Assembly: GCF_002104995.1 (NCBI RefSeq)
Contig: NW_024468302.1
Location: forward strand, 1-54,146
Direction: 5' to 3'
DNA length: 54,146 bases
Source: Linderina pennispora
Taxonomy: Eukaryota > Kickxellomycota > Kickxellomycetes > Kickxellales > Kickxellaceae
Shown: positions 18,068-25,800 of the stretch, piece by piece
Layout: every line of letters starts with the position of its first letter
Position numbering within the stretch: the stretch's first letter is position 1
Translations under genes and position numbers: made by a program
Notes under the pieces: generated by a model
Seen by the model: only the letters and a program-made list of their open reading frames with translations
What the model was told of the DNA's origin: nothing
The model's database searches: none

Positions 18068-18616
18068 TCAGTCGTCGTCGTCATCCGCCGGCTCATCCAC
18101 CACCCGATCGTCCGTATGCACCAGCTCGTCCTCCTCCATCATCTCCTCGTCCTCCACATCCTCTTCCCCCTCTTCCTCCTCCTCTTGCTCTGCCATCTCC
18201 GCATCGCCATTCACCGCCGCCTCCTCCTCCTCCCTTGGCAGCTCGCTGGCGATAATCTCCAGCATTGCGTCCAGGTCCTCGGCCTGGAACCGGTCGCCGC
18301 ACTCCTCGATAATCAGATACAGCTCCACCGGCACCCGTGGCCGCAGATTGGCTATCTGCAGAATCTCTGCCTTGGTCAGCTCATACTCGGCCAGCCGCTG
18401 CCGCAGCCCAGATAGCTGCATGCCGTCCTGGCTCGTGCACGACGTGTTGCTGAGGTACTGCAGGGCCTCGAACTTTAGCGTCGTGACGTTTTCTGGGTAC
18501 CGCATCTGCCCGCGCTCCTTGGCCTTGAGGTCCTTGTGCCGCGCATCTTCTTCCTGCAGAACCAACAGCATCTCGTAGTTGGACAGCAGGGCTTCCTGCA
18601 CATTCAAAACTTTCAT
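18068..18616 (-). CDS. RPC17: RNA polymerase III subunit Rpc17 (RPC9/CRCP)
   Basis: This 182-residue protein starts MKVLNVQEALLSNYEMLLVL and contains the HRDC-like helical core of Rpc17: FEALQYLSNTSC, LAEYELTKAEILQIANLRP and VELYLIIEECGDRF. Rpc17 pairs with Rpc25 to form the stalk of RNA polymerase III, which contacts initiation factor TFIIIB. The last 50 residues are an exceptionally acidic tail (runs of E and D, ending DDDDD), longer than in animal CRCP. It is the last of the six minus-strand genes. The Fanzor island lies immediately upstream of its start. Confidence 0.92.
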   Translation of the reverse strand: MKVLNVQEALLSNYEMLLVLQEEDARHKDLKAKERGQMRYPENVTTLKFEALQYLSNTSCTSQDGMQLSGLRQRLAEYELTKAEILQIANLRPRVPVELYLIIEECGDRFQAEDLDAMLEIIASELPREEEEAAVNGDAEMAEQEEEEEGEEDVEDEEMMEEDELVHTDDRVVDEPADDDDD

Positions 18617-19523
18617 ATTTCAATGTATGGGAAAATGGAGGGGAAGGTTAGGACTGGATCCGATACCAAATTCCTCTGCTCCACCTTGCCCCTCCCCTCC
18701 CCAAAAATACACTCGCACAAGCAGCTTATGGCAAAGCACAGGCCATCATGACGTGTTTGTATTTTGAGTAAAAGAATAAACCTGTGGAAACAATCTGTAT
18801 CTCTGTCACATACGGCCTTTTATCTGTGCGTCCTGGGGGTGTGCTTTGTTCCCTCGTGGCTAGTCTCACGTGCCCATACACTACAATCATGGCATCTTTA
18901 TCTTTATCTTTATTTTTACCTATATTTAAGATTTTATAGTCCAAAAAGTGTCCGACCGTCCGCTAGAAATTATTTAATTGGTTAAAAAAAACTCTTAAGC
19001 TTCAACACGGGTTTGAGTGACTTGCTCTGTAAACTCCTTTTGGTCTTGTGCGGCATCTGACCTCATCGGTAAAACCAGGGTGACAGGCTGGTATTGTAGT
19101 GGTCACAGGTCTCCACTAGATATCTCCATTGGTTCAGCGCAAGAGCTGCTCTCATTGTCAGTCGGCCTGATAACTTCTATGGCGTCATCATGGTGGTCAT
19201 CACCGGCTGCGCAACACCCTTAGGATATTTATTTATGAGCATCTATTGAATAAGGCCATGTAGCTCTTCTAACAGTCATGCAATATTTGTGGGTTTATTT
19301 TATAAATTAATTTGTCTTATGAACATGTGTAAGCAGTGGTATTTGGGCCACAATGGACCCAGTCTGTATAGACTGATTCAAGAGACTGTATCAGTGCTAA
19401 GGGCCCCAAGAACCATGCAAGCCAGATCATTTTTAATAAAAAGTTTTTAATGCTATGCATACGCAATAAAGCAAAACTGAACAGCATCATTTCTCTTCTT
19501 ACTTTGCCTATTGAATTTCTCAA
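18617..19523. other. AT-rich upstream flank of the Fanzor gene
   Basis: This 0.9-kb stretch lies between the Rpc17 start and the Fanzor ATG. It is AT-rich and includes a TCTTTA tandem run near 18895-18915 and small hairpins, for example AGTCT-GTAT-AGACT at 19371-19384 and AGAGC-T-GCTCT at 19142-19152. The proximal part presumably holds the RPC17 promoter. If the Fanzor is carried by a Helitron, its left end (A|TC) should be here. Candidates include 19241/19242, but none is marked clearly enough to choose. Confidence 0.4.
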
Positions 19524-22136
19524 ATGAATATTACCCCCAGCACTACTGTTATAAAGACATCGCTTGGTGGTATTGGCTTCCGTGATTCTATGTTGCCCCG
19601 CCTAGAGCAATTTGTACACAGCGTCAATATCATCAAAGAGCATGCATATATGCTTGCACGATGGATATTACTCCATCAACTAGCTGACGATGATGCCTTT
19701 GACCCTGCAATATTTGTGAAAAAGGGATTCTTTCGCTCAATTTATTTATTTATTTATCGCAACCTGAAGGCGAAGACTGTCATATCTGCCGAGGATTTCA
19801 TCAACCGGAAGGACCGGCCAGAACTGTCGAGTGCAGATTTCGGTGATGTAATTAGATACCATATTTATGATTATCTATTGCATAATGGTGATATCGAGCT
19901 ACATGGTGTATGTGAAATGAATCAAGTAGCAACATACGTGGATACCGAGCTGATGACAGCATACAAGAACAACATTGTGTTACACTATGGCACTTGCCTA
20001 CAGCGGATTCTGGCCAAATTGATTGATATTCGCAGCCGCAAAAACACACTGCACAGTACAATGGGCAATGTGTCCAAGGCTGAGTTCAATAACGCATGTA
20101 AAGTGTGTATTTATACACCTGCACAGAAGCTCCGCCAGGCAGTTGCCTCTAGGCACCCTGATCTCAGTGTGCTCACCCCACCGATGCTTGCAATCTACAA
20201 CAAGCTGGCACCAGTCCTTAATGCCTATGATGCCAAGTACAGATTCGCCAAAGACAGCCAATACTATGATGCCAAGGCAAATCCACTTAAGCATCTGCAT
20301 GCATACATTCGCCTATGCCAGCTTATCGAGAATGAGCAGCTTGGCAAGTCTCCCCCCCAATGCTTGCCTCTGCGGACATCATGGATCCTAGGCCATGTGC
20401 GCTTAGACAAGCAAGTAATCAAGCAGGTGTTTATTTCGAAAACACGCGAGCAGGTTACCAAGATCAGCGCAGCAAAGAGGGCAGCAACAGAGGCAAGGAA
20501 AGCAGCAGAAAAAAGTGAAAAATTGGCCAAGAAGGCTGCACGCGAAGCAGCGAAGATGCCATCAGATGAAACAGAGGCCACTGCAGCAACTGCAGCAGTA
20601 GCGGCTGATTCACTTGCTGCTGCATCGGCAGCAGCAGCAGACACTGTTGCAGCACTTAACAATGCATATGCACCAGCACCCCCAGTCTGTGCACATGACC
20701 CGGTCCAAGGGATCACACAACCTGTGTGGGATGTATGGGGCCGGGTCGCAGATCTAACATCAAAGCCATTTAAGGCGCATGGTGATAGAAAATTCCACGG
20801 GATGGCGACAACAGATGGTGTAACGATATGCATTTTGTTACAAGACAAGGTACCTAAGGCTGGTGCTGCAGGAGGCAATGCTGCGGGAGGCAATGCTACA
20901 GGCGATGCTGTGGGAGGCGATGCTACAGGAGGCGATGCTACAGGCGATGCTGTGGGAGGCGATGCTACAGGCGATGCTGTGGGAGGCGATGCTACAGGCG
21001 ATGTTGCAGGAGGTGGTGCTGTGAGAGGCAATACTATAGCTGACTGTCGCTATATCCACCAGATCCCAAAGCCAGAGCTGCAGAATCTGAAAGGCCGCTG
21101 TGTATTCATCGATCCAGGTCGGGGCGATTTGCTATACATGATGCACGAAAATAGCAGCAATGGGAAAGAGGGTGAGAGAATGCTCTACCGCTACACATGG
21201 CAGCAGCGCAATAAGGAGCTCAAGCTGCGCCACTATGACAGGATTCGTCAGGCTACAAAGGATCAAGTCCCAGAAGATGCTGTCCGCAGAGCAGAGGCAG
21301 AGCTTTCCAAGCACTGCTGCCGGACCCTTAGCCCAGCAAAATTCCGTGCCTACGTTGCTGCCCGTGCATCTGTGCGGTGTGTCCTAGCACCGTTTTATGC
21401 CAACACGATGACAGCGCGAAGGCTACTAGAGCAGCAGCCCACTAAGTCAAACAAGCAGCATCAGAGGCGCTGGAAGGTCCATCCAGGTGTCGGGACCAGT
21501 CCCAAGGTGTACCCGCTTCACCGCAAGCTGCGCCTTGATTCATTCATGAACCAGGCCCGTGCAGACCACAGGCTTGCCGCAAAACTCCGGAGCAAGTTCG
21601 GTCCAGATCCAGTGCTAATCATGGGCAATTGGAGTGCGCCAATGGCCCGACACCATGCGCCGATTCGTGGCAAGGGGTGGCGCGACAAGTTCAAGCACCA
21701 TGGCTTTGAAGTCTATCTGATCGAGGAATTCCGGACATCGTCGGTGTGCCCGTTCTGCTGCAAAAAGTCGCTGCAGACATTCCGGCATGTTCCCAACCCG
21801 CGGCCCTACCAGAGATCGAAGAACCCAACTGTGAAGTGCCATGGCCTTCTCCGCTGTACAAGCGAGTCATGTAAGCAGGCCATGGCACAATACAGGCGAG
21901 CCTATTCGTCTCGGCTCTTGAACCGCGACCTCGCAGCAGTTCTAAACTTCAGACTCATTTTCCAGTCACTCTGTGATTCAGGCAGTATTCCTGAACGGTT
22001 CTGTCGTTCTACGGCCATTGCTGCCGATACTTCTGGCACCACCCCTGCAACAAAGAACCCGCACAAGAGGCGTGGACCAGCTGCAGGTGATTCTGCTGCC
22101 AGCAGCAGCGAACCAGCCCTGAAACGTCTGCGCTGA
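19524..22136 (+). CDS. Fanzor RNA-guided nuclease (eukaryotic TnpB homologue)
   Basis: This intronless 870-residue protein has the Fanzor architecture. The N-terminal helical part begins with a TTVIKTSL-type segment as in other fungal Fanzors. RuvC-I is VFIDPGRGD with Asp530. The usual RuvC-II site reads VLIMGNWS, without the canonical Glu. A conserved Glu lies instead in YLIEEFRTSSVCPFC (Glu734/735). The zinc finger is C742-x2-C745 ... C778-x4-C783, and RuvC-III is LLNRDLAAVLNF with Asp802. The C-terminus (HKRR ... ALKRLR) resembles a bipartite nuclear signal. Fanzors cut DNA at sites chosen by a guide RNA encoded at the element's 3' end. Residues about 310-385 are Ala/Lys-rich and 447-503 are a Gly-Asp-Ala repeat, both inserted between the N-terminal part and RuvC. 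The DNA is visibly AT-richer than its neighbours. An intact frame with all catalytic residues suggests a recently active copy. Confidence 0.92.
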   Translation: MNITPSTTVIKTSLGGIGFRDSMLPRLEQFVHSVNIIKEHAYMLARWILLHQLADDDAFDPAIFVKKGFFRSIYLFIYRNLKAKTVISAEDFINRKDRPELSSADFGDVIRYHIYDYLLHNGDIELHGVCEMNQVATYVDTELMTAYKNNIVLHYGTCLQRILAKLIDIRSRKNTLHSTMGNVSKAEFNNACKVCIYTPAQKLRQAVASRHPDLSVLTPPMLAIYNKLAPVLNAYDAKYRFAKDSQYYDAKANPLKHLHAYIRLCQLIENEQLGKSPPQCLPLRTSWILGHVRLDKQVIKQVFISKTREQVTKISAAKRAATEARKAAEKSEKLAKKAAREAAKMPSDETEATAATAAVAADSLAAASAAAADTVAALNNAYAPAPPVCAHDPVQGITQPVWDVWGRVADLTSKPFKAHGDRKFHGMATTDGVTICILLQDKVPKAGAAGGNAAGGNATGDAVGGDATGGDATGDAVGGDATGDAVGGDATGDVAGGGAVRGNTIADCRYIHQIPKPELQNLKGRCVFIDPGRGDLLYMMHENSSNGKEGERMLYRYTWQQRNKELKLRHYDRIRQATKDQVPEDAVRRAEAELSKHCCRTLSPAKFRAYVAARASVRCVLAPFYANTMTARRLLEQQPTKSNKQHQRRWKVHPGVGTSPKVYPLHRKLRLDSFMNQARADHRLAAKLRSKFGPDPVLIMGNWSAPMARHHAPIRGKGWRDKFKHHGFEVYLIEEFRTSSVCPFCCKKSLQTFRHVPNPRPYQRSKNPTVKCHGLLRCTSESCKQAMAQYRRAYSSRLLNRDLAAVLNFRLIFQSLCDSGSIPERFCRSTAIAADTSGTTPATKNPHKRRGPAAGDSAASSSEPALKRLR
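20862..21033 (+). repeat. In-frame minisatellite inside the Fanzor gene
   Basis: Nine-base units of the type GGAGGCGATGCT and ACAGGCGATGCT are arranged in a higher-order repeat of about 27 bases, present about three times between 20931 and 21010 with more divergent units around it. The encoded peptide is a run of GGDATGDAV and GGNA/TGDV units. All copies are multiples of three, so the frame is preserved. The array falls in a linker just before the RuvC-I strand and is probably length-polymorphic. Confidence 0.85.
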
Positions 22137-22288
22137 GCAGGCAATCAAGGTGGGAAATGATCATGATCACCATTGCACCAACAACCATCCGACACGTTCA
22201 AATGACCGGTTCGCCGTGATGCCCTTATCGACGTGTCAACCCATGCTGACTAGCAGCCGAGCTCGCATCGCGAGCAGAGCAATTCTAG
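22093..22288 (+). ncRNA. Candidate Fanzor guide (omega/fRNA) scaffold
   Basis: The last 44 bases of the Fanzor ORF and the 150 bases after the stop contain several perfect inverted repeats: CTGCTG-CCAG-CAGCAG (22093-22108), the 12-base palindrome TGATCATGATCA (22158-22169), GACACGT...ACGTGTC (22191-22197 with 22231-22237) enclosing CGG-TTCG-CCG (22207-22216), and GCTCGC-ATC-GCGAGC (22261-22275). Fanzor and TnpB guide RNAs are typically transcribed from this place, overlapping the 3' end of the nuclease gene and running past the element's right end, where the guide begins. Transcription, exact ends and guide are inferred, not seen. Confidence 0.4.
22261..22288 (+). mobile_element. Possible Helitron-type 3' terminus downstream of Fanzor
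   Basis: A perfect 6-bp hairpin GCTCGC-ATC-GCGAGC (22261-22275) is followed after 9 bases by CTAG (22285-22288) and then T. This matches the classical Helitron 3' end: a short GC-rich hairpin about 10 bases before CTRR, inserted before T. Fanzor genes are known passengers of Helitrons and other transposons. No Rep/helicase gene is present in the window, so the element would be non-autonomous. The left end was not located. Confidence 0.38.
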
Positions 22289-22348
22289 TACATGAATATG
22301 AGTGGAATAAGACGTGTTGGTAAAAGGAAAATGACAATATGAAGGAAC

Positions 22349-22561
22349 TCAGTTTATTTGCAGGTCGTCCCGCTTCGGCACAATGATCGGGTGCAGCTGC
22401 GCCAGGTACGTGATTCCCCACATGAGGTAGCACGACGATAGCGTCAGAATCGTGCACGTCCGCCACAGCGTCGGGTCATTCTTGCCGTTGAACACAAACA
22501 TCGACAGCACGCACAGCCCGACCACGAGAAGCCCAATCCAGAACACCAATGCACCGCCCAT
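22349..22561 (-). CDS. VMA9: V-type ATPase subunit e (Vma9)
   Basis: This 70-residue protein has two predicted transmembrane helices (about residues 3-21 and 30-52) and the family signature CYLMWGITYLAQLHPIIVP, corresponding to the conserved CCYLFWxxxxLAQLNPL of V-ATPase subunit e. Subunit e sits in the Vo membrane sector of the proton pump that acidifies vacuoles and Golgi. The ATG complementary to 22559-22561 gives the family's usual length; the frame extends upstream only through unrelated codons. It is divergent from SPC7, with 240 bases between starts, and the candidate Fanzor element ends 60 bases from its stop. Confidence 0.88.
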   Translation of the reverse strand: MGGALVFWIGLLVVGLCVLSMFVFNGKNDPTLWRTCTILTLSSCYLMWGITYLAQLHPIIVPKRDDLQIN

Positions 22562-22801: not shown

Positions 22802-25800
22802 ATGAATCCGTCAAGCGACGCAGACGCGATCGACCAGGGGTCGACGCCAAAGCGCCTCAAAACCAATGTACGCAAAATCAATGCCTACTGCGACCTTTTT
22901 AAACTACCATTCAGGCCAACCCGCGCATAGCATCGTTTCCTAATGACTGAAAACGCTGCCTGCAATTTGAATACCTTGTAGGACCACAAAGCAGTACCGG
23001 CCAGTGTTCTCATGGCCAGTCCATCTGAAGCGCACGCCGAGCAGAAGCCGCCAACACCATCGCCCAAAGACCGGCGCAAGGGCCGAAAATCGCTCGGCCG
23101 CCGCGTGAGCTTCGCGCCAACTGCCCATGTCCGCATGTTTGAGATCCAGGAAGAAAAGCAGGCCCAGACACCGCCTGCCAACATGTTTGATATCCCGGAC
23201 CTGTCGTCGCAGGCCGGCACCGGCGGGTTCGACCTCGGCGGCCTGTCGGCGATTGAAGAGACATCTATGGCTAGCAATGAGAGCTTCGATATTTCCGTGC
23301 ACCAATCGGATCTGACGGACTCGAGCCTCGGCGATTCGTCGTTTCTGGCCAACCTGCAGGCGCCTGTGGATAATGCGGCCCAGTACCAGGAAGTTCTGAG
23401 CGACGATGACGAGGATTTGGAGGACGATGATGAGGAGGCACAGACTATGGAGCTTACAGGCACCTTCGATATGGGCGCAATCCAGAATGGCGTGGACAGC
23501 CCTGAGGAGGATGTCGAGGAAGAAGATGGCGTGCAGTCTACGCACTCGCTGGCGTCTGGCCTCGCCACCACCGATGTGTCGAGCTTTCTCAACATGCTTT
23601 TGCAGGGCAATGGCACTTCTGCCACCCCTGCTGGGGCTCTGGCCGCACAAGAGCCGAGCCTGCTCGACAACATCATTTCGCAGTTCGACACTACCCAGCA
23701 GATCAGCGTGCTTACCGGCCAGGGCAACATTACCGACAACGAGACTACCCGTGTGGGCATCGACGAGGGCTCGGCTGACGAGGACACTATCAGGGTACAG
23801 CCTGCCGGAGATAGCAGTGACGAGGACATTGATGATGAGGGCGACGAGGGAGCGGTGACTATGGAGCTAACAGGGATTGTGGGTGACCTGGAGCCCGGAC
23901 AGAATAGCAGTATGATTGTAACTGAGGAGGACTCGGACGCCGAGATGGAGATCGAGGGTGAAACCCCCGCGGTGGACGGTGACGCCGACACCGAGCCAGA
24001 GGATGAAGGTGCAGAACTTGTGGCAGACGACAATGTTGATTCTGGGTCAGAAGAGGTAGAGGATTCTGTCGATGAGGAAATGGCGGAATCTGATGAAGAA
24101 GAAGTGGCAGAACCTACCGCGGAGGCAGTTAATGCTGCTGAGTCCGTAAGTCTCCAGGCTACCGACGCTGCGGAATCCATAGCCAGAGAGACAGCCCCTG
24201 AGCCAGCAGAGGACGCAGCTGGCCCACCCTCACCTAGCCTGAGTGCTTCTCTTCAGGCATCTTCTCCGACATTGCCACCAACTCGGACAAGTCCTAGAAC
24301 TCCTAGAACTCCAAAAACGCCTGAGGTCGCGGCAACGCCAAAGATGCCCATGACCGCAGCGACACCAAGCACCAGGGCTACTCCCAAAGCGGCGACACCA
24401 GCACCGGCTAGTATCTCCAGGTCCTCCAGAAATGGCACATCTGCCATCCCAAAGACCGCAGCCACACTGCCCCGACCTGTTGCTACGCCAAAATTTGGAC
24501 CGCTACCAAAAGGCCCTGCAACTGCCCCTCGGGCAACAGCAGTCGAGCCTCTGTTCCCGCCAAAGTCTGCTGCTCCGCCGACCAACGCTTCGGCAGCTGA
24601 AGCGGCCATGTCTCCGATATTGGGCATGCAGACACCCAGGACCATGGCCACGCCTGGGGCAAATGGAAGCGTGTCTGTTGCAGGAGCCACGTCGCACAGC
24701 CTGTTTGACGCGTCGCCATCGGTCGAGGCATCAAACCGGCGCGACTCGCGGTCACGCAAGAGCCCGAACGAGAAACCCCCCGCACTGCTGTTCGATATAC
24801 ACCAGCAGCAGCCTGAGCCTATGGGCGGTGATGAGACGATCCCTGCACCCAAGGAGCCGACACCGGAGCCCGTGCGCGACCCGATGTTTTCGCTGGACCC
24901 ACTGCCCCCGGTCCCCACCCTGGACGGCACTCCAGAGCTGATAACCAGCAAGGTCTCGCCGGCGCTGGGCGACATTGCCAAGGCTGGCCTGGTGTTTGGT
25001 ATCTTCAACGCATACCAGCGGCAAAACCTGGTTCCCACAGCCCCCGCGCCAGAGCTCGACACGGAGTATCCGCAGAAATACGAGCCACTGTACCGCAAGG
25101 CGAAGTTGAAGGCACGGCTCGACTACTGCCTGTCGCTAAACAACCTGTTTGAGATCGACCGAGAGGTCAGCGAGGTGATCAAGCAGCCGTCAGCCGATGT
25201 GACTCCATTTGCCGAGTTCTTCCAGGAGCAGAACGCGCTTCTGGAAGAGCATCGATCGAATTTGCTGCTAAAACTCTCGCGTCTGAAGCAGAAGCTGTCG
25301 CAGCCAGCGCCCAGCGAGTCGACTGGCAGGCGCGCGGCCGACATCAAGGCTCTGCGGTCGCAGGTCAGTGAGCTGCGCGCAACGCGCACAGCCAAGGCGG
25401 CAGCTGTCGACGAGCTCAATAATGAGATCCAGGCACTGCAGCGCACCAGTCTGGCGCTGGACCGCAAGGCGTCGGAGAAGAAGAACTCGCAGAGCGTCCT
25501 GCTTGCCATCAACGGCCTGCATCTGTCAGATGTGTCAGAGGACAGGTGCGAGTTTGTCTACGACAAGTTTGCGAAGCTCAATGTCGATGCGACCGCCGAG
25601 TTCTCCTCGCTGCATCCAGACATCGACTGGAATGCTGTGGTCAAGGATGCTGTTGGCGGAAAGGAAATGGCGTCCCGCCACTATGTGATCAAGGTCATGA
25701 AAACCAACGCCGTGATCAAGCGGCTGCTCGCCGATGTCAAGGCCATTCGGCGCCAGACGTTGGTGGAACTGCAGTACAGCGAGGGTATCCAGGTCCGCGT

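Follow-up and report, generated by a model that had tools for sequence, protein, structure and literature searches.

In the IS200/IS605 TnpA-TnpB systems, an HUH enzyme is paired with an RNA-guided nuclease, and the TAM of the nuclease is the target of the transposase. Among Helitrons, autonomous elements code for a Rep and a PIF1-type helicase, canonical elements insert exactly between A and T with no target-site duplication (TSD), and Helitron2 elements have asymmetric terminal inverted repeats (ATIRs), with hairpins at both ends. Fanzor1 genes have been reported within non-autonomous Helitron2 elements of Chlamydomonas reinhardtii (Bao and Jurka 2013, PMC3627910). As far as that account describes them, these elements (CRe-1/2/3) share their ends with Helitrons verified in that genome, have right ends in excess of left ends, carry ATIRs, insert after TTTT, often show TSDs and contain multi-exon genes. 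The SPu-1 element of Spizellomyces punctatus, source of SpuFz1, is a single-ORF Fanzor1 present in many copies, among which gene-less ghosts are in surplus, and is described with 33-bp TIRs, putative TA TSDs and no transposase found between its ends (PMC10432273, PMC3627910). PpFz1 of Parasitella parasitica, with a TAM given as ATN (PMC11423790), is by sequence the closest solved structure to the protein studied here. The biological role of Fanzor nucleases has been called unknown (PMC10432273).

The window analyzed in this work, a whole stretch of 54,146 nucleotides from Linderina pennispora, holds a locus that resembles CRe-1/2/3 in that a Fanzor1 gene most likely rides in a non-autonomous Helitron with ends common to other Helitrons of the genome. 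As opposed to CRe-1/2/3, the family has TC/CTAG ends, A-TA sites, no TSD and a single ORF, and the genome contains Fanzor units lying directly behind a Rep unit in one composite. The residence of Fanzor1 in non-autonomous Helitrons was hence known, whereas a composite that links it to a Rep-coding Helitron is apparently new: neither such a composite nor TC/CTAG ends were found in the accessible literature on Fanzor and Helitron, in which few subscription papers and bioRxiv preprints were covered. The gene and the parts of its product are arranged as follows.

19524..22136, + strand: Fanzor1 coding sequence, 870 aa, single ORF
20841..21038, + strand: low-complexity GGDATGDAV-type minisatellite within the gene (tandem repeat finder and locus comparison)
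21111..21119, + strand: RuvC-I, D530-P531-G532 (DPG), with D530 in 36/36 aligned sequences
21726..21728, + strand: RuvC-II E735, the alternative glutamate immediately ahead of the zinc finger, E in 36/36
21747..21872, + strand: zinc finger C742, C745, C778, C783 (alignment of 36)
21927..21929, + strand: RuvC-III D802 in N-R-D (N800-R801-D802), D in 30/36 and N in 6/36

All sequence tests against known Fanzors identify the 870-residue frame as a complete, intact Fanzor1. Its best solved relatives by phmmer are PpFz1 (1.1e-81) and SpuFz1 (7.3e-37), and a family profile from 36 aligned sequences (34 region-search relatives, P0002 and the query) hits PpFz1 at 5e-218 over positions 4-679 of 708, SpuFz1 at 9.8e-111 and GtFz1 at 9.4e-35. 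The region search for relatives, which gave 98 among 3246 candidates, returned named relatives in Coemansia, Dichotomocladium, Rhizopus, Mucor and Thamnidium. The match to PpFz1 is whole-length; PpFz1 has about 75 extra residues between query positions 639 and 666, whereas the window protein has inserts of its own at about 304-401 and 442-506. At D530-P531-G532 and E735 the protein carries the Fanzor fingerprint of DPG in RuvC-I and an alternative Glu before the zinc finger (PMC10711439), together with the C4 zinc finger followed by RD given as the Fanzor1 motif (PMC3627910). Conservation of the finger cysteines is complete for C742 and C745 (36/36) and stands at 35/36 for C778, 31/36 for C783 and 28/36 for C772. 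The third catalytic Asp is replaced by Asn in six Coemansia relatives (P0002, P0004, P0006, P0043, P0051, P0067), a substitution described likewise for GtFz1 (PMC11423790). Pfam and NCBIfam gave the window protein only matches below cut-off (Cas12f1-like_TNB, 12.9 bits against 26.3; guided_TnpB, 9.5 against 100), which taken by themselves would imply no relationship to TnpB, a notion rejected on the phmmer and profile matches to Fanzors. Within the ORF, Rfam placed a bacterial sRNA on the minus strand at 24.9 bits, below the threshold of 100 (E 0.00067), a match taken as chance.

The original prediction, made from the letters alone, had called an uninterrupted 870-codon frame an intact Fanzor, and both frame and identity hold, with the catalytic and zinc residues all present. 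It had placed RuvC-I at Asp530, the TS-C...C zinc finger (C742, C745) and the NRD with Asp802 correctly, and the profile search against Fanzors and the genome copy count that it had suggested as checks gave the profile values above and the locus count below. The catalytic Glu, E735, was absent from it, as were the Helitron vehicle and the multicopy nature of the gene. The lack of introns, from which it had argued for recent mobility or selection, is real, the gene being a single ORF; it is not telling alone, because SpuFz1 is described as a single ORF as well (PMC3627910, PMC10432273).

At least 61 Fanzor loci were identified in the 26-Mb genome through two six-frame searches with grouped matches, the first giving 76 matching stretches (52 scored among 566 candidates) and the second, with a Coemansia Fanzor as query, 49 scored among 445 candidates; the count is a lower bound for the assembly, and some sites may be counted as two loci because two versions of them are present. 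Several small contigs (C173, C53, C162, C169, C175, C203, C5) have flanks or longer stretches in common with large contigs and may be haplotigs, and some sites common to small and large contigs hold, by their end coordinates, elements of unequal length. Residues 1-870 are covered by at least ten search rows, nine of them without a stop, among the 52 scored of 566 candidates. Purifying selection acted in the history of the Fanzor family. For nine copies (L014 and L018 partial; L015 and L016 excluded by a motif filter), pN/pS is 0.34 when pooled and 0.27 outside the low-complexity parts, with pairwise values of 0.18-0.51, and variable sites outside those parts number 64, 56 and 109 at codon positions 1, 2 and 3. 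Selection for function, as originally proposed, is thus seen at the level of the family. Elements of about 2.0-2.2 kb, judged by end coordinates, lie at C169:4625, C3:18791, C2:47057, C113:168070, C124:54972 and C19:1768, and these six suggest an amplified internal-deletion derivative.

Comparison of the window with 20 other loci by blastn, together with empty sites, delimits the following unit.

18895..22288, + strand: mobile unit, most likely a non-autonomous Helitron, 5' TC...CTAG 3'
18894..18918, + strand: short ATCTTT array at the left end (tandem repeat finder), with 1 to 8 units in other copies
18895..18991, + strand: left end common to the Rep/helicase Helitron, 96% identity over 99 positions (window 18894-18991 against L035rc)

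The unit is flanked by a host A (18894) and by TA (22289-22290). Its left end was recovered in 19 of the 20 loci, L013 being interrupted there, and its right end in all 20, at 22290 or at most 9 bp away. No inverted repeats were seen in the Fanzor unit of the window and the 20 loci, and no target duplication around it; a possible ATCTT/AAGAT hairpin can be made out by eye at the 5' end, with no matching repeat near the 3' end. Canonical Helitrons (Helitron1) are described as having 5' TC, 3' CTRR and a short hairpin some 10-12 nt before the 3' end (PMC5148889), and the unit shows TC...CTAG and a hairpin whose end lies 13 nt from the terminus and 9 nt from CTAG. CTGG stands in place of CTAG at 4 of 43 right ends, TA follows 42 of the 43, and A precedes TC in 20 of 26 single-unit left ends (three of the other six are tandem junctions after CTAG), these counts including some sites that duplicate one another. 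Arrays or irregular structure obscure the host base at 19 of 45 left ends, which weighs against the reading we favor. Across the genome, the right-end pattern has 202 matches with at most 3 mismatches and the left-end pattern 114, Rep units included, with no match for the reversed-pattern control of the former or the control of the latter. The excess of right ends is suggestive, the two patterns being unequally sensitive, and many copies seem to be without a Fanzor gene, given 202 right ends against 61 loci in searches that are both incomplete. A retroelement reading, prompted by an AAAGAT tail on the minus strand and a partial duplication in L017, was rejected on the lack of visible TSDs and was dropped because Rep/helicase composites explain the ends.

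A genome search located the Helitron_like_N domain (PF14214) at 13 places in seven groups. The Rep partner carries this domain and a PIF1 helicase (PF05970), the latter scanned in L035 and L037, whereas the window unit itself codes for Fanzor only, with no Rep or helicase. Two composites, L035 (C157) and L036 (C112), have the order left end, Rep/PIF1 helicase, right end, left end, Fanzor, right end. In them the Rep unit ends with the hairpin GCTTGC-ATC-GCAAGC plus CTAG and the Fanzor unit with GCTCGC-ATC-GCGAGC plus CTAG or CTGG, so that both right ends share GCTYGC-ATC-GCRAGC plus CTAG and their hairpins differ by one compensated pair. A third, L037 (C171), has Rep/helicase, the Rep-unit right end and then the start of a Fanzor unit that runs off the contig. 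All eight Rep-unit right ends of the genome have the shared left end directly behind them, and in seven the 5' part of the Fanzor unit lies there; the eighth, at C2:649689 (L078), has the same left end followed by other DNA, which recurs behind the right end of L051. No Fanzor was found at C2:645-650 kb or below C23:2840 with the Coemansia query (49 scored among 445 candidates). This other DNA is 96% alike over 245 bp between L078 (C2:649300-649730) and L051 (C23:2840-3115), and by eye partially resembles the Fanzor 5' region. Left-end matches also occur upstream of six Rep groups (C2:655267, C112:891853, C157:19908, C157:1120561, C171:12047, C212:570568).

It could be argued that the Fanzor units form a separate, unrelated transposon that happened to insert beside Helitrons, as independent insertion can yield head-to-tail neighbors and the Fanzor right ends of L042 and L051 directly precede left-end sequence. 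We regard this as improbable: the left end is 96% common to the Rep unit, the right ends have hairpin and CTAG in common, and the outer flanks of L035 and L036 differ on both sides, so that the composites moved as units. Because the composites have the same left end and a related right end, the Fanzor-only copies are most likely non-autonomous Helitrons. On the other hand, a clean Rep/helicase and a clean Fanzor occur together in none of the composites examined, a point against this Helitron reading. L035 has a disrupted Fanzor frame and L036 an internal deletion in it; the Rep domain is spread over split frames, with a stop in three of the seven best matches, a figure that takes introns and damage together. 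Open Fanzor frames do occur behind Rep units with inserts between, at C212:589956 and C157:1107727. At L042 (C2:450260-450540) a Fanzor right end directly precedes a left end that is truncated, behind which a further left end lies in inverted orientation, and a divergent Helitron Rep match lies at C68:198243-198650 within a 1989-residue open frame.

The insertion and its surroundings were examined through the following features.

18068-18616, - strand: gene for an Rpb4-domain protein, nearest neighbor (domain scan)
18751..18885, strand unassigned: MITE-like insert of 135 bp bordered by ATCATG, outside the Fanzor element and not in the empty site L082 (C112)
22289..22290, + strand: near-invariant TA after CTAG
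22349-22558, - strand: gene for an ATP_synt_H (V-ATPase small subunit) protein, nearest neighbor (domain scan)

The ordinary minus-strand neighbors initially noted on both sides are the Rpb4-domain and ATP_synt_H genes. The EMC1 protein encoded in the window matches a partial Linderina pennispora entry at 99% identity across 76% of its length and L. macrospora at 88% across its full length, which points to a Linderina-like fungus as host. The last 90-odd bp of the MITE-like insert are matched at 11 other places in the genome. A genome search with the flanks of 14 occupied sites, joined in each case, gave bridging empty-site matches for L018, L026 and L028, and for L024 as a repeat family; the window's match takes in its right flank together with 8 nt of its left flank. 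Each of L012, L017, L020 and L027 has its two flanks repeated on one further contig, spaced too widely for an empty site, and this search gave no second full site for L009, L011, L016, L019 and L021. At the five sites with an empty version, the occupied sequence reads A, then TC...CTAG (CTGG in L018), then TA. The A is present in the empty site at all five independent places, L084 being taken for L024, and the TA at four of the five, the window's having AA; the TA after CTAG hence probably belongs to the host. No TSD is seen at these five sites. Their occupied versions lack between 0 and about 11 bp of the target, a departure from exact Helitron insertion between A and T that counts against the Helitron reading.

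Window positions 24001-25800 match C112:1279878-1281677 at 98%, and no other place in the genome, collinearly with the empty site at C112:1278153, where both the Fanzor unit and the neighboring MITE-like insert are lacking. Given this collinear match, C112 and the contig of the window seem to carry one locus in two versions, either alleles or a recent duplication. The recent mobility surmised at the outset is supported by the missing insertion, which also bears on the idea that the window copy has been domesticated as a chromosomal host gene. An intact frame amid housekeeping genes might invite that view; with the insertion missing from a contig collinear at 98% and 60 other loci found, it has hardly any likelihood.

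The region downstream of the Fanzor stop contains the elements on which a guide RNA prediction can be built.

22191..22237, + strand: stem of 8 bp lying upstream of the right end and proposed to belong to the omegaRNA scaffold; 97.8% paired cells over 23 copies
22249..22289, + strand: right-end structure; 100% of cells paired in 23 copies
22249-22253 with 22285-22289, + strand: basal stem ACTAG/CTAGT, 5 bp, enclosing the hairpin
22261-22275, + strand: hairpin GCTCGC-ATC-GCGAGC, 6 bp, inside the basal stem
22291..22310, + strand: predicted guide region in the host flank, from SpuFz1/TnpB anatomy

Pairing weakly supports a conserved right-end RNA structure. Over the last 100 bp of 23 copies, every change in the basal stem and hairpin is a G-U wobble; the right-end stems of these copies show no double-sided covariation and do not exceed the shuffle control, and this lack weighs against the reading we favor. 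A pseudoknot interpretation of ACTAG/CTAGT was dropped, the pairing being also a plain basal stem. For SpuFz1, the RNA is described as coming from the right end with a 14-15-nt guide from the flank, and the TAM as CATA, with a conserved CA to the left of its element (PMC10432273). We read this CATA as possibly composed of the conserved CA and the TA target and, by the same reasoning, predict here a guide RNA from the right end, a guide beginning at 22291 and a TAM of A-T-A derived from the Helitron target.

The right-end structure could, however, serve only as a Helitron terminator, with Fanzor1 taking no guide there or being passive cargo. The right end of the Rep unit, a unit without Fanzor, also folds into a CTAG-closed stem with a hairpin, and the surplus of right ends over gene loci described above points in the same direction. 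Passive cargo is harder to reconcile with a protein under purifying selection and a whole frame free of stops in nine rows, and the RNA of SpuFz1 is reported to come from the right end of an element that likewise has gene-less ghost copies (PMC10432273). This explanation seems unlikely, if by some way the most serious of the competing ones.

Empty sites offer a comparison with the predicted guide and TAM. The window guide is identical to the C112 empty site at 20/20 positions, and the guides of the other four sites have 2, 3, 2 and 2 mismatches to theirs. Directly ahead of the guide start stands ATA at three of the five independent empty sites, AAA at the window's own and GTA at L084, while four relatives of the L024 site divide into two ATA and two GTA. 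That the window and L084 depart from ATA speaks against the proposed TAM. The unoccupied sites are nonetheless each off-TAM or guide-mismatched, which fits survival from cutting; five post hoc cases cannot show it, and the non-window empty sites are several percent diverged anyway.

Our preferred reading, to which we assign a probability of about 0.72, is that the Fanzor1 of the window is cargo of a non-autonomous Helitron, that Rep moves such units in trans, and that the nuclease would use an omegaRNA with a guide from the flank and a TAM of A-T-A. The Rep/helicase of composite-type Helitrons would mobilize Fanzor-only units through rolling-circle transposition. The region 3' of the Fanzor stop would yield an omegaRNA whose scaffold ends in ...CUAGUA and whose guide is host flank, and the TAM would be composed of the A and the TA at the Helitron target. 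Insertion would replace the A at -3 by the G of CTAG, and the occupied site would hence escape cutting. An unoccupied allele might then be cut, with the occupied allele as template for its repair, in a TnpB-like cut-and-copy process whose homing step is taken from the TnpB literature. The proposal resembles IS200/IS605 TnpA-TnpB in joining an HUH enzyme to an RNA-guided nuclease with a TAM that is the transposase target (PMC10432273), and differs from it in involving a eukaryotic Rep/helicase and Fanzor1. More tentatively, and with the balance leaning against it, the fungal Helitron and Fanzor1 might be a linked eukaryotic counterpart of TnpA-TnpB, in which A-TA sites give the TAM, insertion destroys it, the nuclease cuts empty alleles and repair copies the element, and in which persisting empty sites would be those with a changed TAM (AAA in the window) or guide mismatches (the other four).

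A single genome thus brings together nine copies with the whole frame and others that are shortened, a Helitron enzyme in linkage with the nuclease, and sites present in both occupied and unoccupied form. With a definite prediction for TAM and guide, the question of whether Fanzor helps its transposon becomes directly testable, and the window copy, present in one and absent from the other of two assembled versions of its site, could help show cooperation between enzyme and transposon.
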